DNA of 64,000 nucleotides from Gordius sp. MW1 (Eukaryota > Nematomorpha > Gordioida > Gordea > Gordiidae): assembly GCA_964036665.1 (NCBI GenBank), contig OZ038527.1, positions 6,386,001 to 6,450,000 of the forward strand, written 5' to 3'. Within the stretch, counting starts at the first letter, position 1; every line of letters starts with the position of its first letter. Both the position numbers and the translations under genes were made by a program. The notes beneath the pieces were generated by a model, which worked only from the letters and a program-made list of their open reading frames with translations, did no database searches and was not told where the DNA came from. This document shows, piece by piece, positions 2,620 through 53,793 of the stretch.

Positions 2620-5293
2620 ATGCGGATTAAGATCGCATCACTAAACATTAATACCTTAATGGTGGAAGGGAATCAACAATGTATGATAACATTCGCTAGG
2701 AAATATAAACTGGACGTTCTGTGTTTACAACAAACTCGGATCCCCCTCTCCAGAGTCGATAGCGCATATTCAGACTACACAATATACCATGCTGGTATCA
2801 GTGAGAACCCAACCACAGGAGTGTCCACAATATTAAATAAACGTCTCTCAATCTCGAGTATCGACTGGGTTAATGACAGAATCCTCATCCTCAATGTCAC
2901 ATTCGGGTCACGCACTCTTTCATTGATAAACGTCTATGTCCCCACATCGTCATATAAACTTCAAATATTGAAAGACTTTTTCACTCTCCTTTCAGGAAAG
3001 ATCAAAACTCTAAATCGCAGATCAGTGCCCGTTATCATTGACGACTTCAACTCTTCGGTTAAGTACACTGATCGTGATGACCCTGGCTTGGTTGGCCCTG
3101 ACTCTTTAGGCACAAACAATAGAAATGAAATTTTTCTGAAAAAATGGTGTAGAAGGTTGAAGTGGCGTATTGCCTCTACTTTTTCCGAACTCCCCACAGA
3201 TCAGCTGGCAACATTTAGAAAAAGGAATAGTTCTCAAACAAGCCAAATAGATCACCTGCTGTGCAGATCACGGCATTATAAAATTGTTAAAAACTTTCGT
3301 GTTATACAGGACACAATAATCGAAAAGGCGGACCACAGCGCCATAGCAGCTGAGCTGGTAGTGAAATCAGCCACCTTACGAATACCATCATTACGCAATA
3401 ATCCAACGATAAGGCCACAAGGTTTATCAGGTACAACCGAATTCAGGGAATATCTACGCAAATTTGGAAATACAAATTTTTCTGCTTTACCCATCAATGA
3501 GTTGAGTCTGAAAATATCAGCTATATTTGCTAATGCCCCCAAGTGCCAGAATCGAATGAAGACAAAAACTTGGTTCTCACAACAAACGATAGGGCTACTG
3601 AGGACAAGAAATCAACTTTTTTTTGATGATAAAAATTTCCCATACAAATCCTCTTGCCTGTCGGCCCTCAGCAAGCGCATCAAGTCAAGCATAAGCCAGG
3701 ATAAAATGGCTTATATTAATTCGTGAACTAGCGAGGCAGAGGCGGCGGCCCGCTCAAATAATACTCACCAACTATTCAACATAATAAAAAGCCTGAATCG
3801 TAGCTCCTTTTCAAAAAGGGCATACTACAACATAAAAACAGCAAGTGAGTCAAACGACTCCTTAATTCTCTGGTACTATGCTACATCTAATCTTTTGTAA
3901 AGTCTGGGCGAAAGAAGAAGCACCAGAATCTTGGGCACTAGGGCGGCTTATCAAGCTTTTTAAGAAAGGAGATCCATCTGATCCTAATGATTATAGGGGA
4001 ATCACAATTATAAATCTTGAGTCCAAAATATTTATTAAAATAATCTACAACAGAATATATAATGAGGTCGAGGGCATTCTCAAACAAAATCAAGCAGGGT
4101 TTAGGAAATGCCGGACTACAATAGAACACATCATTACACTGAGAAATATGATAGATGTGTCGCGTTTCAGTGGGGACTCTTTAGTTTTAGTCTTCCTAGA
4201 CATTTCGAAAGCGTTTGACTCCCTTTCCCTTCTTTACATATGGGAGTCGCTATGTCTATTGGGAATTCCCAAAAAATTGATTCTTATGATCTTCCTGATC
4301 TACAAAGACATGAAAGTAATAGTAACGCATCTACAACACAAATCAGACCCGATCCCAGTGACAGTGGGAGTTAGACAGGGCTGCCCACTGTCCCCTCTTC
4401 TTTTTATAATAGCGATGGACTTGATCGTATAGCGGTCTATACTTGGCTACGATGGCATTAATGTAAACGGAAGCAACATATCATCACTACTTTTTGCGGA
4501 TGATATATGCCTTATCGCTTCGTCTGTACCACAGGCTCAATCGATGGTTGATAGATTTGCTACTCAGGCGAAACAAGCAGGGTTGTTTATAAATGCTGGT
4601 AAGTGCTCTATGCTTGTAATAAATAATCAATCAGAGGAGGAGTTAATAATAGAAAATAACCCAATACAAGCATCCCACAGAGTAAGGTATTTAGGAGTAG
4701 AACTAACAGAAGATTTGTATGCTGACGAAGACTTAGAATTAAAGCTCCGGCGAACTCTTGTAAAATTTTACTCCTGCTCGGCAATCTGGCGCCCGCGCCA
4801 ACTGGTCCTTAACACCCGCCTGAGGATCTTTAAAGTTATGATTCTACCAACACTTCTTTATGGGTGTGAATCTTGGTCGTTGCGTGCCCCCGGCATAAAA
4901 AAACTCCAAATAAACATCAACAGAATGCTACGAATTGTATGTCGAATCATTTATCCGGCAACGATAACAAACGAAAATCTGTGGATGCGTTGCAAGATCC
5001 CTCCAGTTAAAAATATTATGTTAACAAGGAAGTGGAATTTTTTAGCACATCAGGCCCGGAGGAAGGGAACAAACTATTGCCTGTCTTCCCTGTTCTGGTG
5101 TCCTCCTTCATTAAGAGGCTTGAAGTGCAATGGCAGTTGGCTTCATAAGACTTTTCGTGAAATTCAACTATTAGGTCAGGACTGGGATTCAATGTTGACA
5201 ATAATGCAAGATAGGAAACTATGGATAGAGTTCTCAAAGAATCAACTATCTTGTCTTTCAACTACAAGGGCGCGTACATCTCATTCGTATTAA
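2620..5293 (+). pseudogene. APE-type non-LTR retrotransposon ORF2: endonuclease plus reverse transcriptase, broken
   Basis: Residues 1-240 of the 2620 frame form an endonuclease/exonuclease/phosphatase fold: LNINT (motif I), LQQTR where the family has LQET, IDDFN for GDFN, SQIDHLL, and ADHSAI for SDH. The metal-binding Glu is Gln, so nicking activity is doubtful. The reverse transcriptase follows from 3878 with DYRGIT, AGFRKCRTT, motif A FLDISKAFDS and GVRQGCPLSP. Motif C, LLFADD, lies at about 4487-4504. Thumb and a C-terminal region (LLYGCESW, HQARRKG) run to 5293. The YRGIT signature suggests an RTE/Proto-like clade, not settled. Breaks: TGA at 3724, a shift from frame 1 to frame 2 before 3878, and an in-frame TAG at 4430. 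The element is dead as it stands. Both key RT aspartate regions survive, so the decay is recent. Confidence 0.88.
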
Positions 5294-8379: not shown

Positions 8380-10076
8380 AATTGCTAGGCAATTTATGGG
8401 CTCTTTTTTTGTTGTCCGTCCGTTGTATCCTCCCTATCTATTTGCATTGGGTATATTAGGTTATCGCTTTTTTAAATTAATGCATGAGAAAGAGGTGCCC
8501 CACCCCTCATCTCTATCTCCCTGCTGTGTTATTTTTTAAATTAATGCATAAGAGGTGCCCCACCCCTCATCTCTATCTCCCTCGGTGTGTTATATATAAG
8601 ATTTGTTAAATTATCTATTATATAATAAACATAAATAAAAGTTGTTTACTTTTAATTGCTATGCAATTTAATTAGTTTTTTAGTTAGAATCCCGGAGTTT
8701 TTTTTGACTCTTATGATTGTTCTTGTTACTATCATTGATAATAAGAATTTTTGGCCGTCCGCTGGCTCCTGACCGATGAAAAAAATGACCATTGGCCAAA
8801 ATGTGAATCGAAATTATTTTTTTCGTTTTTTTTGACTATTATGATTGTTCCTGTTCCTACCATTGCTATTATGACTTTTTGGCCGTCCGCTGGCTGCTGA
8901 CCAATGTTATATAATAAACATAAATAAAAGTTGTTTACTTTTAATTGCTATGCAATTTAACTAGTTTTTGGGTTAGAATCCCGGAGTTTTTTTGACTCTT
9001 ATGATTGTTCTTGTTACTATCATTGATAATAAGACTTTTTGGCCGTCCGTTGGCTGCTGACCAATGGAAAAATGACCATTGGCCAAAATGTGAATCCGAG
9101 TTTATTTTTTCGTTTTTTTTGACTATTATGATTGTTCCTGTTACTACCATTGCTATTATGACTTTTTGGCCGTCCGCTGGCTCCTGACCGATGGAAAAAA
9201 TGACCATTGGCCAAAATGTGAATCGAAATTATTTTTTTCGTTTTTTTTGACTATTATGATTGTTCCTGTTCCTACCATTGCTATTATGACTTTTTGGCCG
9301 TCCGCTGGCTGCTGACCAATGGAATAAAATGACCATTGGCCAAAATGTGATTCGAAAACTTTTTTTTTGTTTTTTTTGACTATTATGAATTTATATCCAC
9401 TTTTACCGTGTCCTGGCTGCTGACCAATGGAATAAAATGACCATTGGCCAAAATGTTATTCGAAAATTTTTTTTTCGTTTTTTTTCGACTATTATGAATT
9501 TATATCCACTTTTACCGTGTCCTGGCTGCTGACCAATGAAAAAAATGACCATTGGCCAAAATGTGATTCGAAAATTTTTTTTTCGTTTTTTCACTCTTAT
9601 GAATTTATATCCACTTTTACCGTGTGCTGGCTGCTGACCAATGGAAAAAAATGACCATTGGCCAAAGTGAGCATCAAAATTTTTTTTCCGTTTTTTGGCT
9701 ATCATTAACTTATAGAGTATCTGTTGGTACTGACCAATGGAGAAAAAATGACCATTGGCCAAATTTTTGATTTTTTTAATTAAAAATTGTTCAAATTCAA
9801 CAAAAAATTTCTCCCAACAATTCTGCAAATTCTTATTCTTGTTAATACCAGACTGTCTGCTATCCATTAGAAAATATCACCACTGGCCAAAGTGATGGAA
9901 AATTTGTATAAATAATTAATTAATCATTAGGCATTCTCGCCCCTTCCCACCTTTATCGCCCATAAATTGCATAGCAAATATGATACATTTATACGGAGTA
10001 TAGATGAGTCGTCCCCCCTTCCCTTCCCCTCCTCCCCTTCCCTTCTCCCCCTTCCCACGAGGGCCAAAGGCCCGAG
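8380..10076 (+). mobile_element. HINE array unit 1 (1.7 kb, Helentron-like non-autonomous element)
   Basis: 5' end AATTGCTAGGCAATTTATGG, 3' end GGGCCAAAGGCCCGAG, with the inverted 5'-end copy CCCATAAATTGCATAGC at about 9960. Body in order: a CCGTCCG-bearing lead; a doubled GAGGTGCCCCACCCCTCATC block (8493-8512 and 8550-8569); an AATTGCTATGCAATTTAACTAG block (8656, 8946); then about nine minisatellite monomers of 107-129 bp (8700-9750). The tail is pyrimidine-rich. No transposase gene. Long minus-strand frames over the monomers are translated repeat. It inserts in T-rich sequence, as Helentrons do (T|T). Confidence 0.82.
8700..9760. repeat. HINE minisatellite with paired CCAATGG/CCATTGG words
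   Basis: Monomers of about 107-129 bp each hold GGCTGCTGACCAATGG, a short A-rich gap, then GACCATTGGCCAAA, so each can fold into a CCAATGG/CCATTGG hairpin. The same array is in every long HINE (10430-11470, 12110-12940, 55310-56180, 62720-63710). Confidence 0.85.
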
Positions 10077-10082
10077 TTTATT

Positions 10083-11779
10083 AATTGCTATGCAATTTAT
10101 GGGCTCGTTTTTTGGTGTCCGTCCGTCCGTCCGTTGTATCCTCCCTATCTATTTGCATTGGGTATATTAGGTTATCGATTTTTTAAATTAAAGCATAAGA
10201 AAGAGGTGCCCCACCCCTCATCTCTATCTCCCTCGCTGTGTTATTTTTTAAATTAATGCATAAGAGGTGCCCCACCCCTCATCTCTATCTCCCTCGGTGT
10301 GTTATATATAAGATTTTTTAAATTAGCTATTATATAATAAACATAAATAAAAGTTGTTTACTTTTAATTGCTATGCAATTTAACTAGTTTTTTAGTTAGA
10401 ATCCCGGAGTTTTTTTTGACTCTTATGATTGTTCTTGTTACTATCATTGATAATAAGAATTTTTGGCCGTCCGCTGGCTCCTGACCGATGAAAAAAATGA
10501 CCATTGGCCAAAATGTGAATCGAAATTATTTTTTTCGTTTTTTTTGACTATTATGATTGTTCCTGTTCCTACCATTGCTATTATGACTTTTTGGCCGTCC
10601 GCTGGCTGCTGACCAATGTTATATAATAAACATAAATAAAAGTTGTTTACTTTTAAGTGCTATGCAATTTAACTAGTTTTTGGGTTAGAATCCCGGAGTT
10701 TTTTTGACTCTTATGATTGTTCTTGTTACTATCATTGATAATAAGACTTTTTGGCCGTCCGTTGGCTGCTGACCAATGGAAAAATGACCATTGGCCAAAA
10801 TGTGAATCCGAGTTTATTTTTTCGTTTTTTTTTGACTATTATGATTGTTCCTGTTACTACCATTGCTATTATGACTTTTTGGCCGTCCGCTGGCTCCTGA
10901 CCGATGGAAAAAATGACCATTGGCCAAAATGTGAATCGAAATTATTTTTTTCGTTTTTTTGACTATTATGATTGTTCCTGTTCCTACCATTGCTATTATG
11001 ACTTTTTGGCCGTCCGCTGGCTGCTGACCAATGGAATAAAATGACCATTGGCCAAAATGTGATTCGAAAACTTTTTTTTTGTTTTTTTTGACTATTATGA
11101 ATTTATATCCACTTTTACCGTGTCCTGGCTGCTGACCAATGGAATAAAATGACCATTGGCCAAAATGTTATTCGAAATTTTTTTTTTCGACTTTTATGAA
11201 TTTATATCCACTTTTACCGTGTCCTGGCTGCTGACCAATGAAAAAAAATGACCATTGGCCAAAATGTGATTCGAAAATTTTTTTTTCGTTTTTTCACTCT
11301 TATGAATTTATATCCACTTTTACCGTGTGCTGGCTGCTGACCAATGGAAAAAAATGACCATTGGCCAAAGTGAGCATCAAAATTTTTTTTCCGTTTTTTG
11401 GCTATCATTAACTTATAGAGTATCTGTTGGTACTGACCAATGGAGAAAAAATGACCATTGGCCAAATTTTTGATTTTTTTAATTAAAAATTGTTCAAATT
11501 CAACAAAAAATTTCTCCCAACAATTCTGCAAATTCTTATTCTTGTTAATACCAGACTGTCTGCTATCCATTAGAAAATATCACCACTGGCCAAAGTGATG
11601 GAAAATTTGTATAAATAATTAATTAATCATTAGGCATTCTCGCCCCTTCCTACCTTTATCGCCCATAAATTGCATAGCAAATATGATACATTTATACGGA
11701 GTATAGATGAGTCGTCCCCCCTTCCCTTCCCCTCCTCCCCTTCCCTTCTCCCCCTTCCCACGAGGGCCAAAGGCCCGAG
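10083..11779 (+). mobile_element. HINE array unit 2 (1.7 kb)
   Basis: Nearly identical to unit 1 in length and sequence. It is joined head to tail with only TTTATT between the GAG end of unit 1 and the AATTGC start of unit 2. Small differences are in homopolymer lengths and one shortened monomer near 11180. Confidence 0.85.
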
Positions 11780-11785
11780 TTTATT

Positions 11786-13363
11786 AATTGCTATGCAATT
11801 TATGGGCTCGTTTTTTGGTGTCCGTCCGTCCGTCCGTTGTATCCTCCCTATCTATTTGCATTGGGTATATTAGGTTATCGATTTTTTAAATTAAAGCAAA
11901 GAAAGAGGTGCCCCACCCCTCATCTCTATCTCCCTCGCTGTGTTATTTTTTAAATTGATGCATAAGAGGTGCCCCACCCCTCATCTCTATCTCCCTCGGT
12001 GTGTTATATATAAGATTTTTTAAATTAGCTATTATATAATAAACATAAATAAAAGTTGTTTACTTTTAATTGCTATGCAATTTAACTAGTTTTTTAGTTA
12101 GAATCCCGGAGTTTTTTTTGACTCTTATGATTGTTCTTGTTACTATCATTGATAATAAGAATTTTTGGCCGTCCGCTGGCTCCTGACCGATGAAAAAAAT
12201 GACCATTGGCCAAAATGTGAATCGAAATTATTTTTTTCGTTTTTTTTGACTATTATGATTGTTCCTGTTCCTACCATTGCTATTATGACTTTTTGGCCGT
12301 CCGCTGGCTGCTGACCAATGTTATATAATAAACATAAATAAAAGTTGTTTACTTTTAATTGCTATGCAATTTAACTAGTTTTTGGGTTAGAATCCCGGAG
12401 TTTTTTTGACTCTTGTGATTGTTCTTGTTACTACCATTGCTATTATGACTTTTTGGCCGTCCGCTGGCTCCTGACCGATGGAAAAAATGACAATTGGCCA
12501 AAATGTGAATCGAAATTATTTTTTTCGTTTTTTTGACTATTATGATTGTTCCTGTTCCTACCATTGCTATTATGACTTTTTGGCCCTCCGCTGGCTGCTG
12601 ACCAATGGAATAAAATGACCATTGGCCAAAATGTAATTCGAAATTTTTTTTTTCGTTTTTTTGACTATTATGAATTTACATCCACTTTTACCGTGTCCTG
12701 GCTGCTGACCAATGGAAAAAAATGACCATTGGCCAAAATGTGATTCGAATTTTTTTTTCCGTTTTTTTACTCTTATGAATTTATATCCATTTTTACCGTG
12801 TGCTGGCTGCTGACCAATGGAAAAAAATGACCATTGGCCAAAGTGAGCATCAAAATTTTTTTTCCGTTTTTTGGCTATCATTAACTTATAGAGTATCTGT
12901 TGGTACTGACCAATGGAGAAAAAATGACCATTCGCCAAATTTTTTATTTTTTTAATTAAAAATTGTTCAAATTCAACAAAAAATTTCTCCCAACAATTCT
13001 GCAAATTCTTAACATTGTGATGTTTTATAATATAATGTTTGTTAGACCCATAATCACTAAAGGCCATAAAAACAAATGTAATACGCAACTAGATGCAAAC
13101 ACTAAATCTAACCATAACCCTTGCCTATATTACATTTTGCCTATATTAAATTTTGCCTATAAATGGAAAATTTGTATAAATAATTAATTAATCATTAGGC
13201 ATTTAATACCCCCCTATAGGCATTCTCGCCCCTTCCCATTTCTCGCCCATAAATTGCATAGCAAATATGATACGTTTATACGGAGTATAGATGAGTCGTC
13301 CCCCCTTCCCTTCCCCTCCTCCCCTTCCATTCTCCCCCTTCCCACGAGGGCCGAAGGCCCGAG
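11786..13363 (+). mobile_element. HINE array unit 3 (1.58 kb)
   Basis: Same ends, joined head to tail to unit 2. Lacks about one monomer. Its 3' part (13010-13170) differs from units 1-2 and instead matches the block-B and right-edge HINEs. These share TTGTTAGACCCATAATCACT and a tract that reads CTAACCCTAACCC in B and CTAACCATAACCC here. The array is thus a mosaic of two subtypes. Confidence 0.83.
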
Positions 13364-17544: not shown

Positions 17545-17906
17545 TTGGTACAACCGTCAAATAATTTAGATAAAAAAATTTTGCCATCCCAAAAAGGAAA
17601 AACAATCTTGATGCTCAATGACTTATCGATATGTCGTTGACAAAACTACTCAGATCACAACCTACTATAGATGCAGATATCAAAATGCCCTTGCAGATTA
17701 ATATATTGTAAAAATATAGCTAAATAAGAGATAATTACAACCATAAACCTGAAACAAATGAGTATCAAAATTTAGTGATTGCATAAAAATAGACCAAAAA
17801 TTCCAAGAACTATTGAAGAGATAATATTGCCCCAAGACAGTCACTACCTGGAGAATGGAACTCCCTTTTTGTTAGAACATTAACAAAGAAATGAAATTAA
17901 GAATCA
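17545..17906. other. duplicated non-coding sequence up to the TIR element
   Basis: Matches 59728-60083. The AATCTTGATGCTCAATGACT stretch and what follows are conserved, but no frame is. Confidence 0.4.
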
Positions 17907-17984
17907 TGTTCAAAATAACGACAGTTCATAATACTGACAGCCTAACAAATTAGACATTAAATCTAAAATTAAAATTAGCAAAAA

Positions 17985-18258
17985 ATATATGAACATATGT
18001 TTAAACAAATAATTGTATATAATACTATATATAGAATTATATGTAAGCAATTACTACATATTTAATATAATATATTATAAACTAAATTATATAATTAATA
18101 AATACAAATTATTTGGTATAGGGTGGTATATAATTAAGTGTATATAATAAAATATATGTAATTATTTTAAAGCAATTCATACATACTTAATATATTAAAT
18201 ATTAAATTATATAATTAGAAAATACAACTTAGTTTGTTATAGGGTAGTATATAGTTAA
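17985..18258. repeat. about 120-bp AT-rich tandem repeats, left part
   Basis: Monomers share ATAGGGTGGTATATAATTAA, GTGTATATAATAAAATATAT, AAGCAATT-ATACATACTTAA and AAATTATATAATTA. The array is split by the LTR element and resumes at 19594. Confidence 0.75.
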
Positions 18259-18582
18259 TGTAATGGATTAGCATTCAAGGTTTCCTTCGCGGTCACAGAC
18301 ATCGTAGCCATTTGAATACACCTTAGTTTACACCGTACTTAGTATCTCTTATTTGATTACTACTTGTATATATGTCCTTTGCTATGTGTATATAAAGCCT
18401 TATCCACCTTATAAAATAGTCTTTGTCCATTGATTTAGTTTATGGTTTAGACTCGGGGTTTAGTGTATACGGGAGTTGAGTATACGGGAGGTTAGTGGTA
18501 TACCCCCGGCCACTTCGTTACAATTGGCCACGAGGAAAAACGTCTAAATCCAAAAGTATTTCACAATGAGGGCTGCTAGCCT

Positions 18583-18795
18583 TTGTTAATCAGAATGACC
18601 AAGAAGAAGCCAGATATGGATTCAAAATTCGAATCAAATTTCGGAAATTCTCTGGTGGATTTCAAATTCGAATCAAATTCCGGAAATTCTCTTGTGGATT
18701 CAAAATTCGAATCAAATTCCGGAAATTCTCTTGATAGGGTTAGAGATATTACACCATATGATTTAAAAAAAAATATTGAGGATATAAAATGTTGA
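18583..18795 (+). CDS. Gag-like fragment with 16-residue repeats
   Basis: 70 residues: MTKKKPDMD, then three imperfect copies of SKFESNSGNSLVD, then DRVRDITPYDLKKNIEDIKC. It lies directly downstream of the primer-binding site, where gag starts. The 16-residue repeat in DNA (48 bp) may be a recent expansion. No capsid domain can be recognised. Confidence 0.4.
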   Translation: MLIRMTKKKPDMDSKFESNFGNSLVDFKFESNSGNSLVDSKFESNSGNSLDRVRDITPYDLKKNIEDIKC

Positions 18796-18851
18796 ATTAA
18801 GAACTATATTTCTTGAACGATATTCCTAATCTTAGCACCTTTAGGAACAAC

Positions 18852-19179
18852 AAGAAAATAGTATGTTATAGGTGTAGTAAACCAAATCCCCTGGCTCGCG
18901 AGGTCAAATTTGCCGTCAAGAAATATAGCTAACTTGAAATACGATGATGCGGTAACGAAAGCTGAAATTGACGTTTTGATCAATGAGAGACCATACACGT
19001 TTCAATTCGATACGGGTGCCGCTTGCACAGTTATTGATGAACCAACGTGGCGTAGCATAGGAAAGCCACCACTAATACCGGGTTCGGAGATATATGGTTA
19101 TGGCAAAACCAAAATTCAAACTTTGGGGAAATGCAGTGCCAAGTTTTTAGTCAAAAAATTGGGTAAAAGGGGTTATTAG
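18852..19179 (+). pseudogene. decayed zinc knuckle and retropepsin-like protease
   Basis: One frame reads VCYRCSKPNPLAREVKF, a CCHC knuckle in which the His and last Cys have become Pro and Val. The overlapping frame from 18910 gives 89 residues with FQFDTGAACTVID, the DTG catalytic motif of a retroviral-type aspartic protease, then GYGKTKIQTLGKCSAKF. It ends at 19179 without the ILG helix motif. The knuckle-to-protease order is that of gypsy pol. The two frames show a shift near 18930. Confidence 0.7.
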
Positions 19180-19593
19180 AAAAATCTATCCAACTACAAC
19201 TCCAATGGGCAATACCCACGGTTAACATCAGGAAGAAATCCGGTGACGTCCGTATGAGTATCGGTGCCAACTGTCAGATACCCTCAAGGTTTCGCTTAAA
19301 GGGTGGAGTAGTGTAATGGATTAGCATTCAAGGTTTCCTTCGCGGTCACAGACATTTGATTATACGCGTAGCCATTTGAATACACCTTAGTTTACACCCT
19401 ACTTAGTATCTCTTATTTGATTACTACTTTTATATATGTCCTTTGCTATGTGTATATAAAGCCTTATCCACCTAATAAAATAGTCTTTTTCCATTGATTT
19501 TGTTTATGGTTTAGACTCGGGGTTTATTGAGTATACGGGAGTTGAGTATACGGGAGGTTAGTGGTATACCCCCGGCCACTTCGTTATAGTTAA

Positions 19594-19815
19594 CATAATA
19601 AACCATATGTAATTATATAAAAGCAATTTATACATACTTAATATATTCAATACTAGATTATATAATTAATAAATACAAGTTAGTCTGGTAAAGGGTGGTT
19701 TATAATTAAGTGTATATAATAAAATATATGTAATAATATAAAAGCAATTTATACATACTTAATATATTAAATACTAAATTATATAATTAACGAATACACG
19801 TAGTTTGGTATATAT
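19594..19815. repeat. about 120-bp AT-rich tandem repeats, right part
   Basis: Continuation of the array at 17985 after the LTR element: two units with AAGCAATTTATACATACTTA and TATATAATTAAYRAATACA. Confidence 0.75.
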
Positions 19816-20739
19816 AAAAAATTTAAGTATTATAGAGTGCTATCTCATGCCTCTAGATTCTTGTTTACAAGTTGATTAATGGAATATTTAGAATGATAAT
19901 TGATATAGTTATAGAGTATATATAATCTCAGCTTAAAAGTATAATAGATTTGCTAATGTTTTTTGTACTTTAATAGAGAACATATTAAATTTTAAACGGC
20001 CAATCTCTAGCCATTAGATTAAATAGAAATTATTCATACAATTTATGATGCTATATAATTTAAATTAGATCCCTAGAAATTGTAAAGATTATTAAATATG
20101 ATTAGTATCAAATGTGCATGTGATTAGTAAGCTTTTGTATTAATTTTTTCTATTATTTTATAGCAAATTTATTTATACTTAAATCAATAACTATATCTAC
20201 TTCTATTTTTTTATCTACCTCTATTAATGTTTACTTATTGATGTACTGTTATATTGATATATAAGATGATTGATGGATGAAACTCTTACCCCAATTTTTA
20301 CATTCAATGCTTACAAAAGAGCCTAGAAAAAAATGCTTTAAAATCTTGTTCTTGTTTTAAAAAGATATAATTAGAAAATGTTATAGCAGGTTGTGAAAAT
20401 CTGGTAGCTCTCAACTTTTTTAAGAATGTGAAAAATTTTATTATTTACCTAACTTAATTTCAAAAAATATCAATAAGTTTAGACTTTATAGCATTTCAAA
20501 CTTTAGACTCTTATCTCAGCTCAGTATTTTGCGCAATCTTTTGCCAGAGATTTTAAATTAAAAGTTTCACATTTAAAAAGTAGTACTTTTGCAAATCCTT
20601 TAAAACTTTCATATGTCTATGCTGACTATATTGCTACTTAACAACATACATTGTAGACTTTTATTTGGTATAACTATTGTCAGTATAATGACTTGACTTG
20701 TGTCTCGTTGATGTAAAATATTAGAAACACTAGGCAAAT
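19816..20739. other. AT-rich filler inside the TIR element
   Basis: No frame of interest. About 20480-20530 (TATAGCATTTCAAACTTTAG, then ATCTCAG) matches 46494-46530, so it holds a fragment of the hAT-like repeat there. Confidence 0.45.
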
Positions 20740-21689
20740 TTATAATAAGGTAATGATATGCCATTTAGACTCTGAAGCTGTTGAAGGGAAAGAGGCAGTA
20801 GGCCTCTTTTGACTTGTCATATATAGGTATGAGGAGTAATACAAGAGTAATACTCCTTTTTGGAACCTAGGATATTCTGGGCAAGACACTAGGTTAATAA
20901 ATATAATTTAGTTGAATCTTAGATAAAAATACATATTTTGTGAAAATGAATGAAATAAATAAAAATAACTAAGTAGTATAAATATCAAAAAATACCTCTG
21001 TCCATTTGATTGGTAACATCCATAATTTGTGGATTATCAGTAGGTATGAAATGGCTTATTTGTGCATTAGGAGTGGCCACACTTTTCTGGTCTAAAAAAA
21101 TATTACAAAAATTAAACAATACAATACTTTGTGGCTGTTCTTGCCTAACTAAAACTCTAGGCAGTATTCTCAGATAGTTGGTAAAAACACCTATTGACTA
21201 GCTTCTTTGTGTATTAGGAGTGGCCACACTTTGCTGGTCTAAAAGATTACAAAAAATTAAGCAATACAATACTTTGTGGCTGTTCTTGCCTAACTAAAAC
21301 TGTAGGCAGTATTCTCATATAGTTGGTAGAAACACCTATTGACTGGCTTCTTTGTGTATTAGGAGTGGCCACACTTTGCTGGTCTAAAAGATTAAAAAAA
21401 AATTAAGCAATACAATACTTTGTGGCTGTTCTTGCCTAACTAAAACTCTAGGCAGTATTCTCGGATAGTTGGTAGAAACACCTATTGACTGGCTTCTTTG
21501 TGTATCAGGAGTGGCCACACTTTGCTGGTCTAAAAGATTACAAAAAAATTAAGCAATACAATACTTTGTGGCTGTCCCTGCACAATTAAGGCTCGAAGCA
21601 GCAGTTGATTAGATGCAGAGATAGATGGGAGATTATTCTGGCCTAGATAATATAAATTTGAAAATAAATGAAATTGCACTTGTAGGCAT
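20740..21689 (-). CDS. unknown spliced gene with tandemly duplicated 111-nt exons and 34-37-nt introns
   Basis: Proposed exons (minus): 21689-21680 (ATGCCTACAA), 21642-21565, 21529-21419, 21383-21273, 21238-21128, 21091-20996, 20888-20740. The first five introns are 37, 35, 35, 34 and 36 nt, the last 107 nt; all are GT-AG and phase 1, so each internal exon is a multiple of three (78, 111, 111, 111, 96). Exons 3-5 are tandem copies encoding 37 residues (QQSVATPNTQRSQSIG, TNY, RILP, VLVRQEQPQ). Exon 6 begins with a diverged copy (QKSVATPNAQIS). Exon 7 is open to a TAA (CPEYPRFQKG, FPSTASESKW). Exon 5 has an in-frame TAG (AGC TAG TCA); leaving it out gives 184 residues. No known domain. The intron sizes match the NAA80-like gene. 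A transposon-carried gene, possibly a repeat-protein of the element. Confidence 0.5.
21092..21564. repeat. about 146-150-bp tandem repeat equal to exon-plus-intron cassette
   Basis: Three full units with CTTTGCTGGTCTAAAAGATT and GGCTGTTCTTGCCTAACTAA. The fourth, at the upstream edge, is diverged (GGCTGTCCCTGCACAATTAA). The repeat period equals one 111-nt exon plus one micro-intron. Confidence 0.92.
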
Positions 21690-21879
21690 GAATAATAATT
21701 GAAAATATTGCACTTTGTGATATGGTAAAATTTTAAAATAAACGGTAAAATGAACGTTATAATGATTGGTTGTTTACTTAAGATATATGACATATCCTAT
21801 AAATTTTAGTTGCAAAATTGTCTATGAATTTGATAGGTTGTCAGTATTATGAACTGTCGTTATTTTGGACAGAAGCGTT

Positions 21880-22430
21880 AATATGTCTATAGTTTTGAAA
21901 AATTTATAAGACTATATTTATATTGCTAAAGATCTTTTAAAAAATTTGATAATACTGCCTTGAATATATCATTAAATAAAATTTTTTAAAAAATATTAAG
22001 ATAAATTAACATAGAGCAATAATTAATACTGCATAATTGCAGCTATTCTTAAAAAATTTGATATAGACACTACCTTAAATATAGAATTAAATAAAATCTC
22101 TTAAGAAATAGTAAGTAAATTAACATAAAGCAATAATCATTACTACATTAATATCTTTGTAGATATTAAAAAATTTGAGATATGCACTTAAGACTTTATT
22201 TTCATTTACTTTTAATTAAAAATTTGTGTTTATTAATTGCAGAAATTTGAAATATATACTACCTTGAATATCTGAATAAAATGTCTTATAAAATATTAAG
22301 ATAAATTAACATAGAGCAATGAATAAGACTGCATTAATATGTTTGTAGATATAGAAATTTAATATCTGACATTAAGACTATATTTATGTTTGCTTGTAAT
22401 AATCTTAAACATTAGTGTGCTAAAAGGTTT
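21880..22430. repeat. diverged about 120-bp tandem repeats, AT-rich
   Basis: Recurring AAATTTGATAT, CCTTGAATAT, AATTAAATAAAAT, AAGATAAATTAACATAGAGC and AATA-x-TACTGCATTAATAT words, about four units. Also in block B (60170-60660). Confidence 0.7.
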
Positions 22431-23132
22431 ATTGTATAAATTAAACAAATTAAATGTGATTGATACATAAGTAAGTTTTGTGCTGCCCCAAATCCAGCTC
22501 TTGAATTAATGGATTCAAAATAAAATACAGAATTTTATTGAGGATGTGATAAAACTTTAAAACTGAAAAACATATGGAAATTTGAAAATCGTAGCAATAG
22601 CATTACCGTAGTTTCGGGATTTAGCCTATATCCCATTATAGGTACAATCAGTAGCGTAGGGCGTATCGGTGCATTCGACCAAAGTTTAACTGACCAAATA
22701 TCTATGAATGTCTATGAATATTTAACGAAAATGCTCCTTGAGAGGGGTTTACAGAGACGAAAATGTTAGGGTTAAGTCGGGGTTTTAGGTTAGGGTTTGG
22801 GTTAGGATTAGAAGCACACATTTTAATCGACAAATGCATTTTCGTAGACATTTATTTGTTATTTGCTTTTTTGCAACTGAATCAGCGTAGGGAAGAGGGG
22901 GGGGTTTCGGGTTAGAACCCTCCCGGTCCCATTGATAATTTTTTTAAATAGCACACAAAATTTATTGAAAATCATAATTATTAATAATTTCGCCAGCGTT
23001 AAGTATTGCGTTATATATTATTTATATTAAAAAATTAAGTCAATAAATTATAAATTTGTTCTAAATTTTTAATTTTTGAAAAAAAGCTGCCAATTCTGAA
23101 CTTATTTTTAAAATTAAGTTCTGCAGCTCAGT
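22431..23132. other. duplicated sequence without a recognised gene, apart from the MITE
   Basis: Matches 60680-61180. The conserved stretch near 22490 (GCCCCAAATCCAGCTCTTGA) is shared only because of the duplication. Confidence 0.45.
22662..22883. mobile_element. 222-bp MITE with 9-bp target duplication and telomere-like core
   Basis: Flanked by AGCGTAGGG at 22653-22661 and 22884-22892. Block B (about 60928-60942) shows the single uninterrupted site. The ends are weakly inverted (CGGTGCA... with ...TTGCAACTG). The core is TTAGGGTTAAGTCGGGG and TTTAGGTTAGGGTTTGGG. A 9-bp duplication fits Mutator-like elements. Confidence 0.8.
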
Positions 23133-23565
23133 ATGAAGCGATATTCCATTTATAATTACTTCCCTAAAAAGAGTAACATTTCTTAGTAGAAAATACAAAT
23201 AGTGCTAATTCTGTAAGAGAACCAGAAGAAGAAGATGATCAAACACTAGGAATGGTAAGTAATTGTTAGTTAGACAATTGCTTTATATGTAAGTAATTGT
23301 TAGTTAGACAATTGCTTTGTATTTTTATTTTATGATATGCTTTCTACATAAATTTGAATATGTTTCTATTATAGAAACCTATACTGTTAATTCTAATTAG
23401 AGAAAAATCCTGTAAAATTCCTAACATTCGGAATTGTATGGGTAAGATACCTTAAATTTATTATCCTATATTTATTTAAAAGGTGCGTGAAAAAGGTAAT
23501 TGATTTTATATCTGCTGCCAGAAATTAAATCTTTTTACCTCTACAAAGATGTCTTTGTCTGATAA

Positions 23566-26279: not shown

Positions 26280-28943
26280 TAGAGGTGTGCACGGATCAAT
26301 CCGATCCGATCCGTCCAAACTCGGATCGGATCAACATTTTATTTTAATCGGATCGGTTCGGATTTTTAAATTTAAAATAAACAATAATAAGTTCTAATTA
26401 ATTAAATTAATAATTTTTAGTATACCTTTTCATAATTATCTTTGCATTCTTTTTTTACTTTACCATTTTTGATGCCCAATACCACCTCTCACCTTACATA
26501 CCCTAATATATTTATCAGTATTTCCCTAGCGTTTTTCCCTAGCTAGACTTTTTTGTTTGGCGAGAAAGGAGCTAGTGTAAATGATAAGCATCTTCCGTTT
26601 CCTTTTTAGCACACGCATCTCTTTCTATCTCAACGCAACTCCGAAAATCATCAATCCCAATCTCCCCTTTCCTTAAAGCACACGCGTAGCCCCTTTCCCT
26701 ATTGATTCCGGGTAATCATGAATGATGTAGCTTGCCTTCTTAAAAGCAATCCATGGTGCAGGGGTATTGTCGTTGACGAGATGGTGTGAGTCATACTGAC
26801 TTGAGGGGGAAAAATAATAGGGGGGGGGGGGGTGTTGGAAGGAATCATTGGGATTCGTAACAGTTAGATTGTTTATCATATTAAACCGTCATGAAAGAAA
26901 TAATAAGAAAATTTAAAAGAAATATGCTTCAACAAGTTAAAAAAGAAGACGGGAAAAAAGTCAAATTTGGAGTTACTTTGACCTTCTAAATGAAAATGAT
27001 ACATACACCGGTTATGTTATCTGCAAAAAATGCCATCATATCTACACATAAATATAATTCCATTCGAGGTAGTTCCCATCTTTTGCATCATTGTGTTTCA
27101 AAAACTTCAGCTAAAAATTTGTTACCAAACCTCTCGCTGAAATCACAAAATAAATTTTTTTTTGAAAAGCATCTAATTTATTTTACTTCGAAAGATATTC
27201 GACCGTTTTCAATCGTTAACGGGGAAGAATTTAGAGCAATGCCCCAAGAAGCTCTGAATATTGGTGCCATTCATGGTCATATAAACTTTGATGAATTACT
27301 TTTAGATAGGACTATTTTAAGTAAGAATACAGCAAAACTTGCAGATGTATGTAGAGAAGCATTAATATTAAAGTTACTCCCCAATTTAAAAGCAAAATCA
27401 TGTTCAGCCACTCTGGACAAATGACTTTGTGAAAATAAACTACTTAACATTTTCTTTATATTATATATCCCTCCGAATCCTACATAAGCATATTTTTTTC
27501 ACTTCAAAAATAGATGTTGAAAAAAACAGGGGAAAATATTTTTAGAGAAATATCTGTAAATTTTGAAAAACTTCACATCCCTACGGAATACATGAGATTG
27601 ATAACTTACGTTACCGATCAGGGCTCTAACATGGTCAAAGCCTTGCAAAATCATAAGCGAATGAATTGTAGGTCCCATTTGCTAAATACAGTACTACGAA
27701 ACGTATTCAATAAAAATGATTTTACATTCCATTACCCTCAGGTTAATTGATAGAAGCATGCAAAAAGCTAACGACATATATGAAGCAAAGTGGCAAAAAT
27801 AAATATTTAAATCATACATTGCATCAAGCAATAGAAACAAGATGGAGCTCCAGATTCGACATGTTTGAGAGCATATTGAAGGAGTATAAGGAAATGACCA
27901 CATATCTAACTTCTATAGATATGCCAGAGAAGATAGATGGGATTGATAAAAATTTGCTGACCAAACTAATAGAAGTCGTCCGGCTGTTTAAAACGGCTTC
28001 TTTAGTTCTGGAAACTGATCAACACCCAACCTTTCACAATATATTGATTCAATATTACCAATTACTCAATGATCTTTTACAATCAGACCACGAGCAAACT
28101 GATGATTTTGAAGAACATCACGAAATTAATGATCTTAAAAAGATATTTGTACCACCCTCAAGTTAAAATTTCCAATCACTCAACAACATAAAATTGCCTT
28201 ATTTTTATGCCCAACCTTCGAAATGAGGGAGTAGGCGTAATTAATGAAATAAGATCCACACTAGCGTCTAAGGATTTTTTGATAGATTCTGCAACTAATA
28301 TTGAAAATTATGCGGCAAGTAGTAGTGATAGTCAGCCTCAAAAAAAAGAAGTAATTAACATACATTTATATATGTATATATATTTTTTACATAAAATAAA
28401 TTATTTAATTTATATTTTAAAATAGTTAATCAATGGGAAGATGAGCAGGAAGAAGATAAAGCCCCCGATGAAATCTCAATTTACCTTTCGTTATAAAATG
28501 AAGATTGCAAATTTGATTCAAAAAAAGATTTGCTGAAATGGTGGGTTTCATATCAAACAGTCCTGCCAAGGCTTTATAAGCTGGCAAATAAAGTTTTAGC
28601 TACACCTGCTACCTCTACCACTTCGGAAAGAAATTTCTCGGTGGCTGGAAGAACATTAGAAGAAAGAAGAACGCGAATTAAACCAGAAAATTTAGATTCT
28701 TTATTATTTTTATATGATAATATGGAATTAAATAAAATTTTATATTTATTTCAGGTCTAATAAAATTGCTATACCTTATTTTTATGTATTTTGAATTTAA
28801 TCATCAATAAAAAGTTCTGTTCGTAAAATTAATTAAAAATTTCGGATCGGATTTAGATTTTTAAAAACTCGGATCCGATTAAAATTTTTCAAAAACACCT
28901 CGGATCGGATCGGATCAAAAAATTTGATCCGTGCACACCTCTA
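26280..28943. mobile_element. hAT transposon with BED-finger transposase (2.66 kb)
   Basis: Inverted ends TAGAGGTGTGCACGGATCAA and TTTGATCCGTGCACACCTCT then A, with repeated CGGATCGGATC words near both ends. The same left end in block B (62289) shows the insertion is older than the duplication. No matching 8-bp flanks: the left flank is the DUF4371 pseudogene and the right flank a Helitron relic, so a rearrangement has occurred at one side. Confidence 0.85.
26890..28759 (+). pseudogene. hAT transposase, BED zinc finger to dimerisation domain, broken by frameshifts
   Basis: Domains in order. BED finger about 26951-27090: WSYFDLLNENDTYTGYVICK, then CKKCHHIYTHKYNSIRG, HLLHHC. N-terminal hAT region to 27423: DIRPFSIVNGEEFRAMPQEA, LLLDRTILSKNTAKLAD, SATLDK, then a stop. 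RNase H-like core: YVTDQGSNMVKALQNHKRMN (27604-27663), RSHLLNTVLRNVF, then in another frame ETRWSSRFDMFE and KLIEVVRLFKTASLVLETDQ (27747-28166). C-terminal dimerisation block 28530-28759: LKWWVSYQTVLPRLYKLANK, PATSTTSERNFSVAGRTLEE, LDSLLFLYDN. At least four frame changes and stops. GTAATT at 28351 and a later TAG may be a real intron, but the other breaks cannot be spliced away. Not active as read. Confidence 0.88.
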
Positions 28944-35755: not shown

Positions 35756-36509
35756 GTGGGGGTTTTTAAAAAAGGGAGAGTTAGAAAATCCAGAGTCCAA
35801 ACTCAAGTTGTGTCTAAATCTAAAGAAAGCCTGGGGAACGCGTGCATGTGGATTTTTTTTGAATGGAAATCGAAATATTATTTTATTTTAGTGGATGCGT
35901 ATTCAAAGTGGATAGAATATGAAAAAGTGACGAGAATGTCGGGAAATGTGGTAGTAAGGTTATTAAAGGAATGGTGCGGCAAGTATGGTCTCCCCAACGT
36001 TATGGTGTCCGACGGGGGACCAGCGTTTAAGAGTAAACCAGTGAAAGACTTTTCTAAAGTGGAAGGAATTACCCATGAGATGATTGCGCCGTACCATCAG
36101 AGTAGTAATGGTCAGGCCGAAAGGATGGTGGGATTGGTGAAGAGCTGGTTGAATAAAGAGTTCAGCGGAGGAGGTGAGAGTAGGAAAATGAGGTTAATGT
36201 ACCTGAACGCGAGGAAAGGTAAAGGTTTATCCCCTGCAGAAAAGTTTTTTAGGCGCCCGAAGAAAAACATGGTTGGATTTTATGAAAAAATGTGATGAAG
36301 AAAAGGTTAAACACGATTGTAAGTTTAAGAAAGGACAGTTGGTTTGGATCAGAATGTTTGGGAAAGGTGTGAAATGGACTAAGGGAACTATAGTACACAC
36401 GGTAGGAGGATTTAAATGTAAAGTTAAAGAATTAGAAGGAAAGGAATGTTGGAGACACGTGGATCAGCTAAAGGTGAGAAAAGAGATGGAAAATGTGAAA
36501 GGGTTATAA
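35756..36509 (+). pseudogene. Ty3/gypsy-type integrase, N-terminally replaced, one frameshift
   Basis: The 35756 frame starts inside the left inverted arm (MGVFKKGRVRKSR...). It becomes integrase at about residue 33: YYFILVDAYSKWIEYEKV, LKEWCGKYGLPNVMVSDGGP (second catalytic Asp), then YHQSSNGQAERMVGLVKSW (catalytic Glu). The first catalytic Asp, expected in an HxDF-like strand before YYFIL, is replaced by WIFFEW. A shift at about 36273-36290 leads to the C-terminal part CKFKKGQLVWIRMFGKGVKW, then TKGTIV and CWRHVDQL. It lacks the zinc-binding N-terminal domain and the whole RT/RNase H, so it is a captured 3' fragment. Likely inactive. Confidence 0.85.
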
Positions 36510-47323: not shown

Positions 47324-48778
47324 TTATGGTAGTGATAAATTTTTGTGTAACCAATGGTAGAGGGTGGGTACTCTTCCCATATCTTCATTAAGAGTGGGGT
47401 TAAGTCTTCTAATAAAGAAGGACTCTAACGTCTTCCTTTCAAAATATGATTTTGTAATAAGTAAAATGGATTGTTTAAGTTTAGACGTGTGATTTTCCTG
47501 CAAAATGTGGTTAGATACTCCTATTGGTACCACGTTAGGGCAATATAGAGAACTGCAAAGTCACTTTTTTTCAACCCGAACCCGACCCGACCCGAAATCA
47601 TTTTCAAATTTTCTACCCGGATCCGACCCGAAATCATTTTCAAATTTTCTACCCGGACCCGACCCGAAATCATTTTCAAATTTTCTACCCGAACCCGACC
47701 CGACCCGAAAGCATTTTAAAAACTTCAACCCGAACCCGACCCGACCCGAAAATTTTTTAAAACAAATTGCTTTTGAGCGAAATTGCTGTGTGTAAAATTA
47801 CATCGACAAATAAACGCCATGATGATTTGTATTCTTTAAAGGGGATGGTGAAAAAAACTCATATTTATTTATCTATATTTAGTTTCCTAATATCAAGTAA
47901 ACTGCTCATATGTTATAGACTAGAGACAACTATTTAACATCCATTTATTGTTATTATGAAACCATTATTATATAGCTGATTATGATCAATATAGTAAATA
48001 TGATTAAATTTAAGTGATTGTTTAAATGTTTTAAGTTTGAAGTGCAATTTAAGATAAATTCATTTGATATAAAACTTAAAAATAATTATGAGTTGTTATA
48101 AACAAAAATATTATATAATTATAAATTTGCAAATGAAACATATAAAATTATAACTTACTTTTAAGTTGGCTTTTGAATATGTATTAAATGTAATTTAAAT
48201 TAACGATGAGGATTAGCTAAAACTTCACGGTTAACACTAAAAAAATTTAAAATATAACTTTATTGAAATAATTTACCTTTTAAAAGTCAAATTAAAAACA
48301 GGAGTAATTTATGTAGTTGGATTTAGTGATGAGAATTAGCTAGCACTTTAGAGTTAAAAGTTTTAAAATTTAAAAAAAGAGGAAGAGAATTAAATGAAAG
48401 AATGATCCAAATTAGTTGTACATTTCGATATTTAAAAACACACTTGGCTTAACAATCAACATTAATTAAAAAAATAGGTCTCGCGTGTTTTTTACAATGT
48501 ATAAACCTTGGACCCGACTCTATAAATTTGACCCGACCCGACCCGAAAGCATTTTCAAATTTTCTCCGTGCAGTTCTCTAGGGCAATATAAGGCTGCCAA
48601 GTGTTCTTTGAGCCTAACTTTTAAGTCTCTTTTTGTTTTTCCAATGTAAAATTGGTTGCAATCACTACAGGTAATTTTATAGACAACACTATTTGTCTGT
48701 GAATCGGAATCATAGTTATTTTGTAAGATGATTAAGAGTGATTCATTAGGTTTTTGCGTGATGATTATGTTTTTAATT
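47324..48778 (-). pseudogene. Penelope-like element C-terminal GIY-YIG endonuclease, split by a hAT MITE
   Basis: Reading minus from 48776: LQNNYDSDSQTNSVVYKITC, then SDCNQFYIGKTKRDLKVRLK, EHLAALYC to 48581. Jumping the MITE (47546-48580), the frame continues at 47537: PNVVPIGVSNHILQENHT, SILLITKSYFERKTLESFFI, RRLNPTLN, HWLHKNLSLP, stop 47324. YIGKTKR, EH and ERKTLES-x-FI are the GIY-YIG core of Penelope-like reverse transcriptases. The reverse transcriptase itself is missing: a HINE 5' fragment begins at 48779. Apart from the insertion the frame is open. Confidence 0.85.
47546..48580. mobile_element. hAT MITE with GACCCGACCCGA words, 1035 bp, in the left Penelope arm
   Basis: Ends TAGAGAACTGCAAAG and CGTGCAGTTCTCTA; perfect 8-bp duplication GGGCAATA at 47538-47545 and 48581-48588. 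Subterminal arrays of CCCGACCCGAAA. The plus-strand frame 47505-47795 (DPKSFSNFLPGSDPKSFSNF) is only the translated array. Confidence 0.94.
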
Positions 48779-48977: not shown

Positions 48978-50306
48978 ATTGGAAAAACAAAAAGAGACTT
49001 AAAAGTTAGGCTCAAAGAACACTTGGCAGCCTTATATTGCCCTAGAGAACTGCACGGAGAAAATTTGAAAATGCTTTCGGGTCGGGTCAAATTTATAGAG
49101 TCGGGTCCAAGGTTTATACATTGTAAAAAACACGCGAGACCTATTTTTTTAATTAATGTTGATTGTTAAGCCAAGTGTGTTTTTAAATATCGAAATGTAC
49201 AACTAATTTGGATCATTCTTTCATTTAATTCTCTTCCTCTTTTTTTAAATTTTAAAACTTTTAACTCTAAAGTGCTAGCTAATTCTCATCACTAAATCCA
49301 ACTACATAAATTACTCCTGTTTTTAATTTGACTTTTAAAAGGTAAATTATTTCAATAAAGTTATATTTTAAATTTTTTTAGTGTTAACCGTGAAGTTTTA
49401 GCTAATCCTCATCGTTAATTTAAATTACATTTAATACATATTCAAAAGCCAACTTAAAAGTAAGTTATAATTTTATATGTTTCATTTGCAAATTTATAAT
49501 TATATAATATTTTTGTTTATAACAACTCATAATTATTTTTAAGTTTTATATCAAATGAATTTATCTTAAATTGCACTTCAAACTTAAAACATTTAAACAA
49601 TCACTTAAATTTAATCATATTTACTATATTGATCATAATCAGCTATATAATAATGGTTTCATAATAACAATAAATGGATGTTAAATAGTTGTCTCTAGTC
49701 TATAACATATGAGCAGTTTACTTGATATTAGGAAACTAAATATAGATAAATAAATATGAGTTTTTTTCACCATCCCCTTTAAAGAATACAAATCATCATG
49801 GCGTTTATTTGTCGATGTAATTTTACACACAGCAATTTCGCTCAAAAGCAATTTGTTTTAAAAAATTTTCGGGTCGGGTCGGGTTCGGGTTGAAGTTTTT
49901 AAAATGCTTTCGGGTCGGGTCGGGTTCGGGTAGAAAATTTGAAAATGATTTCGGGTCGGGTCGGGGTAGAAAATTTGAAAATGATTTCGGGTCGGATCCG
50001 GGTAGAAAATTTGAAAATGATTTCGGGTCGGGTCGGGTTCGGGTTGAAAAAAAGTGACTTTGCAGTCCTCTATATTGCCCTAACGTGGTACCAATAGGAG
50101 TATCTAACCACATTTTGCAGGAAAATCACACGTCTAAACTTAAACAATCCATTTTACTTATTACAAAATCATATTTTGAAAGGAAGACGTTAGAGTCCTT
50201 CTTTATTAGAAGACTTAACCCCACTCTAAATAAAGATATGGGAAGAGTACCCCTCTACCCTTGGTTACACAAAAATTTATCGCTACCAAAAAAACATACC
50301 ATTTAG
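48978..50306 (+). pseudogene. Penelope GIY-YIG fragment, inverted copy
   Basis: Plus-strand copy of the preceding frame: GKTKRDLKVRLKEHLAALYC from about 48983, MITE 49043-50072, then MVPIGVSNHILQENHT to KNLSLPKKHTI (stop 50304-50306). It has lost the YI of YIG and everything upstream. A 1-codon-scale change (RVPLYPW for RVPTLYHW) separates the arms. Confidence 0.83.
49043..50072. mobile_element. hAT MITE copy in the right arm
   Basis: Inverse copy of 47546-48580, with TATTGCCC at 49035-49042 and 50073-50080. The same duplication in both arms shows the MITE inserted before the inverted duplication. Confidence 0.94.
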
Positions 50307-52458: not shown

Positions 52459-53793
52459 TACGCCTCTGGATTTCGAATCGAATCGACGGATTCGATTTCT
52501 TTTACTAAAAAATATTCGATTCGAGATTCGTCGAATATTAAAATAAAGATTCGGATTCGATTCGAAAAAAATTTAAAGATTCGAATTCGATTCGAATAGA
52601 AATAAAAAATTTTATATTAAAAAACAAATATAAAAAATTACTATGATTTTTAATGTGCATATATATTAAAAAATTTATTAAAACATATAGAGTACAGTAC
52701 ACAACACACAACGAAAATAAAAAAATTATACGCGAACAATTATGTAAATTTGTGTGATTAAAATAAAATCATGGGGCTTTTTTAAGCCAATTTTTGAGGC
52801 AAACTATCTTCCTAACAGTTTCTTCCTAACAGTTTCTTCCTTGAACGACTGCTTGTGCTTAGTCAATAGGTTTGTTCCAGTCGAAAAAATTTTTTCGCAT
52901 GGTGTCGAAAATCCAGCTATGGATAAAAAATTTTTGCTAGCTTTTGAATGGCTAGAAAACGAAGTTGATTTGAATTCCACCATTGCAAAGGCTCGACATT
53001 TGAGGGCACCCGCGGTTCGTGTAGATACGTTTCTAATGGAGATCTGACGTTCATGTCGGTTTTAAAAAGCCAATCGAGGGTCACCTCGCTATTTAATACA
53101 TTGTCGTGGTCGCTTCCTAGAGCAGTTTGAACGTCTTCTTTAATTTCTTCAGGACATATGCCATGTATTGGCGATAAGCACTCAAAATATTGTATTTTGA
53201 GCCTTGGGTCGACCACACTGGCGAATAAAGCTATCTTTTTATTAAATGCCATATATTCTTCAATTTTAAGTTTGGCCAATTTAATATTCTCATCTTCAAT
53301 CCCTTGTAAACTTTCTATGAGTTAGTAGTTGACTGGCAATATTAAATTAATCGTAGGATATTGCTCACCCGATATAATTGGTTGCACTAAAAAAAGAAAA
53401 AGTGTTAATTTGATCTTTTCGATTTCTCCCCATTCACGGCTGGATAACAAATCTTCCTTATAATAAGAATTGTCCTTTTTATACAAATTTTTTATTTTAA
53501 TTAACTGGTAATTAAAAGCCAGGTCATCCAATGCCTGCCTCCTCATTAATAGGGCCTTTTCTATCATTTCAAATTATATCAGGAAAAACAACTAAAATGC
53601 GATTAGAGAAAAACAGCTGATTTTTGCATCTCGTTCTCGTCTATTTAAATTAAATTTAATAAATCAAAATTTAATTTTTTTAAGGATTCGATTCGAATCT
53701 TATCTATGTACATATTCGATTCGAAAATACACATAAGGATTCGAATTCGATTCGAAATTACGAATCGAATCTCGAATATCTTCCAGAGGCGTA
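52459..53793. mobile_element. hAT transposon with TTCGAATCG words, 1335 bp, block B only
   Basis: Ends TACGCCTCTGGATTTCGAAT and its near inverse (CTTCCAGAGGCGTA); perfect 8-bp duplication CTATAGAG at 52451-52458 and 53794-53801. Block A (about 6606-6616) shows the empty site. Subterminal GATTCGAATTCGATTCGAA words at both ends. Confidence 0.93.
52801..53567 (-). pseudogene. hAT transposase C-terminal half, frameshifted
   Basis: Minus strand. 53567-53322 gives LMRRQALDDLAF, EDLLSSREWGEIEKIKLTLF, ISGEQYPTINLILP, matching the EW...YPT-x-N-x-x-LP stretch of hAT cores. 53279-52917 gives FASVVDPRLKIQYFE, then LETYLHEPRV and PLQWWNSNQLRFLAIQKLAK. In another frame IAGFSTPCEKIFSTGTNLLT (about 52917-52860) is the dimerisation motif (STPCER-x-FS). 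The N-terminal BED part is deleted. Two or more shifts; non-autonomous now. Confidence 0.87.

Follow-up and report, generated by a model that had tools for sequence, protein, structure and literature searches.

Predicted exon-plus-intron cassettes in variable number within a family of probably non-autonomous TIR DNA transposons

The window analysed here, a stretch of 64,000 nucleotides (G000:C1:6386001-6450000) from a genome of 211.8 Mb in 12 contigs, contains a tandem array at 21052-21575 to which Tandem Repeats Finder assigns a period of 146, 3.6 copies and 93% matches. The array coincides with a predicted minus-strand gene of seven exons (10, 78, 111, 111, 111, 96 and 149 nt), the introns of which (37, 35, 35, 34, 36 and 107 nt) all read GT...AG and are all of phase 1. 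Predicted exon 1 (21689-21680, 10 nt) provides the ATG and is separated by intron 1 (21643-21679, 37 nt, GT-AG, 18.9% GC) from exon 2 (21642-21565, 78 nt, 46.2% GC), which resembles the 3' two thirds of the cassette exon. Three cassettes follow, each consisting in the splice model of a short intron and an exon of 111 nt: cassette 1 at 21419-21564 (intron 35 nt, exon 21529-21419), cassette 2 at 21273-21418 (intron 35 nt, exon 21383-21273) and cassette 3 at 21128-21272 (intron 34 nt, exon 21238-21128). A 36-nt intron and the last array exon of 96 nt (together 20996-21127, exon 21091-20996), whose first 40 nt match the cassette exon, are succeeded by the 107-nt intron (20889-20995, 15.9% GC) and by the final exon of 149 nt, which runs to the TAA (20888-20740).

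The predicted frame extends from the ATG at 21689 to the TAA at 20740 and comprises 221 codons ahead of the TAA, one TAG in cassette 3 (21200-21198) counted in; no other of the 132 units described below has this TAG at that place. An earlier, sequence-only reading of this DNA had proposed exon-plus-intron cassettes, with internal exons of 78, 111, 111, 111 and 96 nt and phase-1 symmetry, as well as a frame open from 21689 to 20740 except for one TAG, and the splice model agrees with it on both counts. The product of 184 residues that it gave is not what the model yields. Its tandem repeat of 146-150 bp is borne out by the period of 146, though the acceptors lie 145-147 apart and not up to 150, and its short GT-AG introns are found at 34-37 nt for the first five, the last being 107 nt long. 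Introns of about 35 nt are likely to be normal in ordinary genes of this genome, since adjacent exon matches in chaperonin genes lie 35, 38 and 37 bases apart at C8:7473879/7473915, C5:4363591/4363630 and C8:36319719/36319757, respectively; the other adjacent gaps among the chaperonin exon matches range from 13 to more than 1000 bases. Rfam and tRNA scans of the window returned nothing.

The gene is contained within a copy of a TIR transposon at 17901-21877 (minus strand), which measures 3977 bp with a nested insertion included, its ends being placed by TIR match and its length by script. The left terminal inverted repeat region lies at 21839-21877 (minus strand) and the right at 17901-17939 (plus strand, by TIR match); the two share, in inverted orientation, a motif of about 29 bp, CAAAATAACGACAGTTCATAATACTGACA, and differ in their outer 10 bp. 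A target site duplication (TSD) is not recognisable at this copy, where 4 of 8 positions agree. The nested insertion, of about 1.3 kb and missing from the sister copies, occupies 18265-19584 between subterminal AT-rich repeats, which make its borders approximate, and holds short repeats of the TTGAGTATACGGGAG type at 18460-18503 and 19527-19556. The right part of the element (17901-18262 and 19585-19810, and likewise in sister copies) has AT-rich subterminal repeats of about 120 bp in seemingly variable number between copies, and the element may thus contain two independent variable arrays. It adjoins another repeat, at 21875-22661 and 22884-23565, a second copy of which (60146-60936 and 60928-61582; 93.5% and 86.7% identity) is without the exon array; the element of the window probably sits in or beside this repeat. 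No ORF of 120 aa or more occurs in 17901-21877, and in encoding no transposase the element corresponds to a non-autonomous one.

Other repeats are present elsewhere in the window. Two CCCGA-rich arrays of period 36 (47568-47751 and 49856-50050), inverted and about 2.1 kb apart, look like an element with tandem-repeat inverted ends, and a nested tandem repeat complex with periods of about 60, 128, 107 and in part 287 occurs at five places (in 8468-13343, 54971-56581 and 62452-63932). Remains of a non-LTR-type retrotransposon lie at 2620-5293 (RVT_1 in 3878-4432), of a hAT element with a Hermes DNA-binding domain at 26990-28166 and of an integrase core (rve) at 35756-36295, and another hAT dimerisation region lies at 52917-53279.

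The element belongs to a dispersed transposon family, of which at least 40 copies were read (the window copy and 39 others) and which gave at least 61 matches in its own genome, with 40 scored of 345 candidates. If up to two mismatches are allowed, the 29-mer of the TIR occurs in the genome 90 times in forward and 82 times in reverse orientation, and the reversed control not at all; exact searches gave 0 in genome_contigs and 0 in viral_contigs. Both ends were located in 14 of the 40 copies, 19 of the 40 loci having been fetched at about 3 kb only, so that their ends may fall outside. Perfect TSDs of 8 bp flank 12 of these 14, against a chance level of 101 in 20000 random position pairs at 7/8 or better; the exceptions are the window copy and L027, which, lacking a TSD, may have been rearranged. 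Inverted repeats, a TSD of fixed length and dispersal at unrelated sites are those of a Class II TIR DNA transposon, and the ends, the genome copies and the TSDs of the sister copies all accord with the earlier proposal that the array is carried inside a TIR element. Target site duplications of 8 bp suit several transposon superfamilies. Movement has been recent, L042 on C8 and L043 on C3 differing by 0.075% over 1330 columns. Eight further copies (L011, L019, L022, L025, L037, L045, L047 and L052) depart by 8-31% from the consensus, probably on account of nested insertions or of the limits of the sequence fetched; L026 holds an ORF which we take, by eye, to be a BEL/Pao-like polyprotein.

From the 40 copies we extracted 132 complete donor-to-donor units with a period of 146 or 145 bp, which fall into sub-family A (54 units at 16 loci, the window copy among them), sub-family B (76 units at 23 loci) and a type C of two units at the single locus L048. 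The number of units per copy, which the sequence-only reading had expected to change by duplication of cassettes, does vary, from one to eight: one unit in 3 copies, two in 12, three in 9, four in 11, six in 2, seven in 2 and eight in 1. The copies that score one cassette, L011, L025 and L047, have an adjoining longer gap where a unit is interrupted or a donor lost. Two copies, L036 with four cassettes and L051 with two, show a difference of 0.38% in the 1327 columns compared that lie downstream of their arrays. The cassette exon measures 111 nt in 46 of the 54 A units and in both C units, and 108 nt in 68 of the 76 B units; the introns measure 32-38 nt, with a consensus of 35 nt in A, 37 nt in B (73 of 76) and 36 nt in C. 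The same reading had held that units elsewhere which keep the period and lose frame or splice sites would speak against it. Among the 132 units, 109 exons combine an open frame with a length divisible by three, 14 have a length that is not so divisible and 9 carry a stop, while the donor GT is present in 129 units and the acceptor AG in 130. These losses, of 3 donors and 2 acceptors, compare with 4.7 expected for each at the intron substitution rate and are not a clear excess of conservation. At six loci, the lone type-C locus among them, locus-private variants are common to two cassettes of the same locus, as is expected if units duplicate or convert within the element.

The composition of the cassette exon points to the way in which the array arose. 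The last array exon is identical to the cassette exon at 39 of 40 positions over the latter's first 40 nt, and exon 2 aligns to the rest of the cassette exon, beyond the part that the last array exon matches. Each of the two alignments outscores all 2000 of its letter shuffles; when only the 5' half of exon 2 is set against the cassette, 17 of 2000 shuffles do as well. The cassette exon would then be a hybrid, with its first 36-40 nt drawn from the last array exon and the remainder from exon 2. At the join of the two parts lies a shared GCCA, which is located among the first bases of exon 2 and at nucleotides 37-40 of the last array exon. A single tandem duplication that spans the intron, with one end in exon 2 and the other in the last array exon, would leave such a hybrid exon with GCCA at the join, and the hybrid would be in frame because its two source exons start in the same phase. 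The array was therefore probably born by in-frame duplication across an intron. No copy without any cassette was found among those read.

Three other explanations of the exons and their array have been weighed. It is conceivable, if doubtful, that the exons are a fragment of a host gene captured by the transposon in a Pack-TYPE-like manner, with the cassette array formed either before or after capture. GC-rich and apparently intron-containing exons in an AT-rich element devoid of any ORF of 120 aa or more are what such a capture would leave. However, no parent gene was seen among the matches listed, and most of the own-genome matches compared by eye adjoin a listed TIR; at least six exon matches are without a close TIR among those listed (C2:25537, C7:15461609, C7:17866858, C7:19720096, C8:23238812 and C8:36723235). 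Nor is there a homologue among the proteins searched: in a single search of 5.8 billion proteins the product of L009 drew 1714 candidates, none of them at E <= 10, and the predicted product has no Pfam match above cut-off, the best being CCB2_CCB4 (E 0.00036, 20.3 bits, cut-off 26.3). The earlier statement that no described family has this peptide stands within these searches.

We regard it as unlikely that the array is a non-coding minisatellite in a MITE-like element, with an open frame and GT-AG borders that are coincidental and remain in phase only because whole units are duplicated. Some 30-45-nt GT-AG intron together with an open exon of a length divisible by three is found in 1127 of 3000 dinucleotide shuffles of one 146-nt unit, so that the frame alone is weak evidence of coding and the shuffles speak to that extent for a non-coding array. 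Substitutions within the cassettes speak for it too. In the A units the 47 single-locus variants comprise 8 synonymous, 34 non-synonymous and 5 stop changes (expected fractions 0.24, 0.70 and 0.06; p 0.31) and in the B units the 20 comprise 9, 9 and 2 (p 0.063), that is, no significant departure from neutral decay and no significant purifying selection. Outside the array, a comparison of the A and B consensus sequences gives 9 differences in 328 exon sites and 30 in 1010 non-coding sites, so that the exons are no better kept, and the exon changes are, by eye, mostly non-synonymous. Exon lengths differ between the two consensus sequences in four places: the differences of 3 nt in the cassette and 24 nt in the final exon preserve the frame, those of 1 nt in the last array exon and 2 nt where the final exon ends do not. 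Exon 1 was located by fuzzy search in 37 of the 40 copies, one of which, L039, is without the ATG start; translations of the remaining three (L012, L026 and L048) were out of phase and were dropped. The whole model is open in 4 of these 37 evaluable copies (L009, L015, L021 and L023, the stop of L015 falling beyond the 160 nt read) and broken in the other 33, which again favours a non-coding array.

Against the non-coding explanation stands the base composition. GC content is 37.6-46.2% across the seven predicted exons, whereas the six introns lie at 13.9-20.6% and three further stretches of the element at 16.6-26.1%. The steps in GC fall at each predicted exon border, including those of the unique exon 2 and of the final exon, and only 5 of the 3000 shuffles also reach the observed contrast between exon and intron, a criterion chosen after the contrast had been seen. 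Furthermore, in sub-family A, lengths depart from the mode by other than a multiple of three in 19 of 54 introns versus 7 of 54 exons, which are three times longer; much of this intron variation sits in a T run. Sub-family B does not share this pattern, such shifts affecting 3 introns and 7 exons in 76 units, so that its introns are as constant as its exons. The contrast in length shifts thus holds within A and between the sub-families, not within B.

That these exons form the N-terminal portion of a transposase gene belonging to the family itself, each copy having been derived by internal deletion from a larger autonomous element, we hold to be quite improbable: non-autonomous TIR elements do commonly arise by such internal deletion, and the genome does have transposases of the P type (76 matches), MULE type (128) and hAT type (150 scored of 3413 candidates), but there is no KDZ match (in a search without a positive control) and no IS1595/Merlin-type match in the genome; among the 100 of 172 TIR places listed no P-, MULE- or hAT-type match was seen, by eye, inside a TIR pair except for MULE ORFs nested beside L017; and one long TIR pair, read in part, carries a gag/protease-like ORF. 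This last, the 10.3-kb pair at C8:34354327-34364583 (L059), had been a candidate for the autonomous element; with that ORF in its middle, judged by eye on the part read, it probably represents a non-autonomous copy that has an LTR-type element nested in it. A 21-kb TIR pair at C1:8832605-8854045 contained no family match among the matches listed, and the unpaired TIR at C8:626761 has a weak MULE match (27.5 bits) at a distance of 4.2 kb on its inward side. In L017 the left end is interrupted by a nested MULE, and two MULE-type ORFs of 407 aa each form an inverted pair beside this copy (G000:C7:6519378 and C7:6524241; L017:1246-2467, minus strand), at least one of them falling in the stretch that interrupts the left end.

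We therefore favour, as the probable explanation, a non-autonomous DNA transposon with 8-bp TSDs that carries a predicted spliced passenger gene with an array of exon-plus-intron cassettes. A transposase supplied from elsewhere probably moves the family. As an exon of 111 (or 108) nt between phase-1 introns is frame-safe to gain or lose, the addition or removal of whole cassettes by unequal exchange or slippage would keep the frame, and the array would act as a minisatellite that changes the product by 37 (or 36) residues per step. The gene would be a passenger, and its full product, if made, dispensable in cis for movement. Of the 23 B copies, 19, the youngest among them, no longer possess the acceptor normally used for the last array exon, and since such copies, differing by a mere 0.075%, are found on different chromosomes, the full gene is evidently not needed in cis for movement. 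Ten of these 19 copies stay open when the last array exon is skipped; such skipping is a prediction of the model that the symmetric exons would permit.

Several known systems resemble this family in part. The Pack-TYPE elements of plants (Pack-MULE and Pack-CACTA; PMC8903248) are, like the present family, transposase-less TIR elements that spread spliced, coding-like sequence; here, in contrast, no parent gene was found among the matches listed, the exons form a variable tandem array and the genome, to judge by its telomere and retroelement types, is apparently not that of a plant. In genes with tandem exon duplications (PMC9013439), an exon plus an intron is likewise duplicated head to tail, whereas in our case the duplication lies in a mobile element, reaches up to eight units in a number that varies between copies of one genome, and has a unit exon that appears to be a hybrid of its two flanking exons. 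Intron gain by tandem genomic duplication (PMC4974935) also draws new gene structure from tandem duplication, although the segment duplicated here already possesses an intron and would yield a new hybrid exon. The earlier likening to the micro-exon genes of schistosomes is not upheld. Flatworm micro-exon genes have in common with the present array runs of exons divisible by three and a repetitive protein, but PMC7653826 requires of a micro-exon gene seven exons or more, half of which are shorter than 70 nt, have lengths that are multiples of three and occur in runs of four or more, whereas the repeated exons here are of 78-111 nt, in a series of 10, 78, 111, 111, 111, 96 and 149 nt, and lie inside a transposon.

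The likeness once drawn to aphid effector genes survives in one respect, the phase of the exons, and in little else. TTAGGG-type telomere repeats stand at three of four contig starts and two of three contig ends read, and a TTAGGG telomere repeat does not fit an aphid. Together with the BEL/Pao-like ORF of L026, these repeats suggest an animal other than an arthropod. Bicycle genes carry two CYC motifs, and inspection of the in-phase translations of the family copies revealed no such pair, so that membership in that gene family is rejected. Nearly every internal exon of a bicycle gene begins at the second codon position, and many are small and similar (PMC9168663), as is the case here; that source does not present them as a transposon family, which the present genes, residing in TIR elements, would be. 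Searches of the open-licence literature, covered mostly through titles and the opening lines of abstracts, brought up no account of a TIR transposon that carries exon-plus-intron arrays differing in number. We class the element as a non-autonomous TIR transposon with a predicted spliced gene, probably a passenger, that includes an intron-bearing minisatellite.

Tentatively, and with less confidence than in the passenger gene itself, we propose that a mobile element here spreads a frame-safe exon array, that the hybrid exon came about by duplication across an intron and that the protein changes by 36-37 residues per step, so that transposition would bring to new loci the members of a young repeat-protein gene family, which hold as many as eight repeats and differ chiefly in cassette number. 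Should splicing proceed as predicted, these copies would present a single gene in a natural series, with the same intron-containing exon repeated up to eight times, in which the birth and growth of a repeat protein could be followed stepwise, and the spread of exon arrays by a transposon traced, in one genome. The tolerance for many near-identical introns of 35 nt in a row would, in the same event, be open to study.
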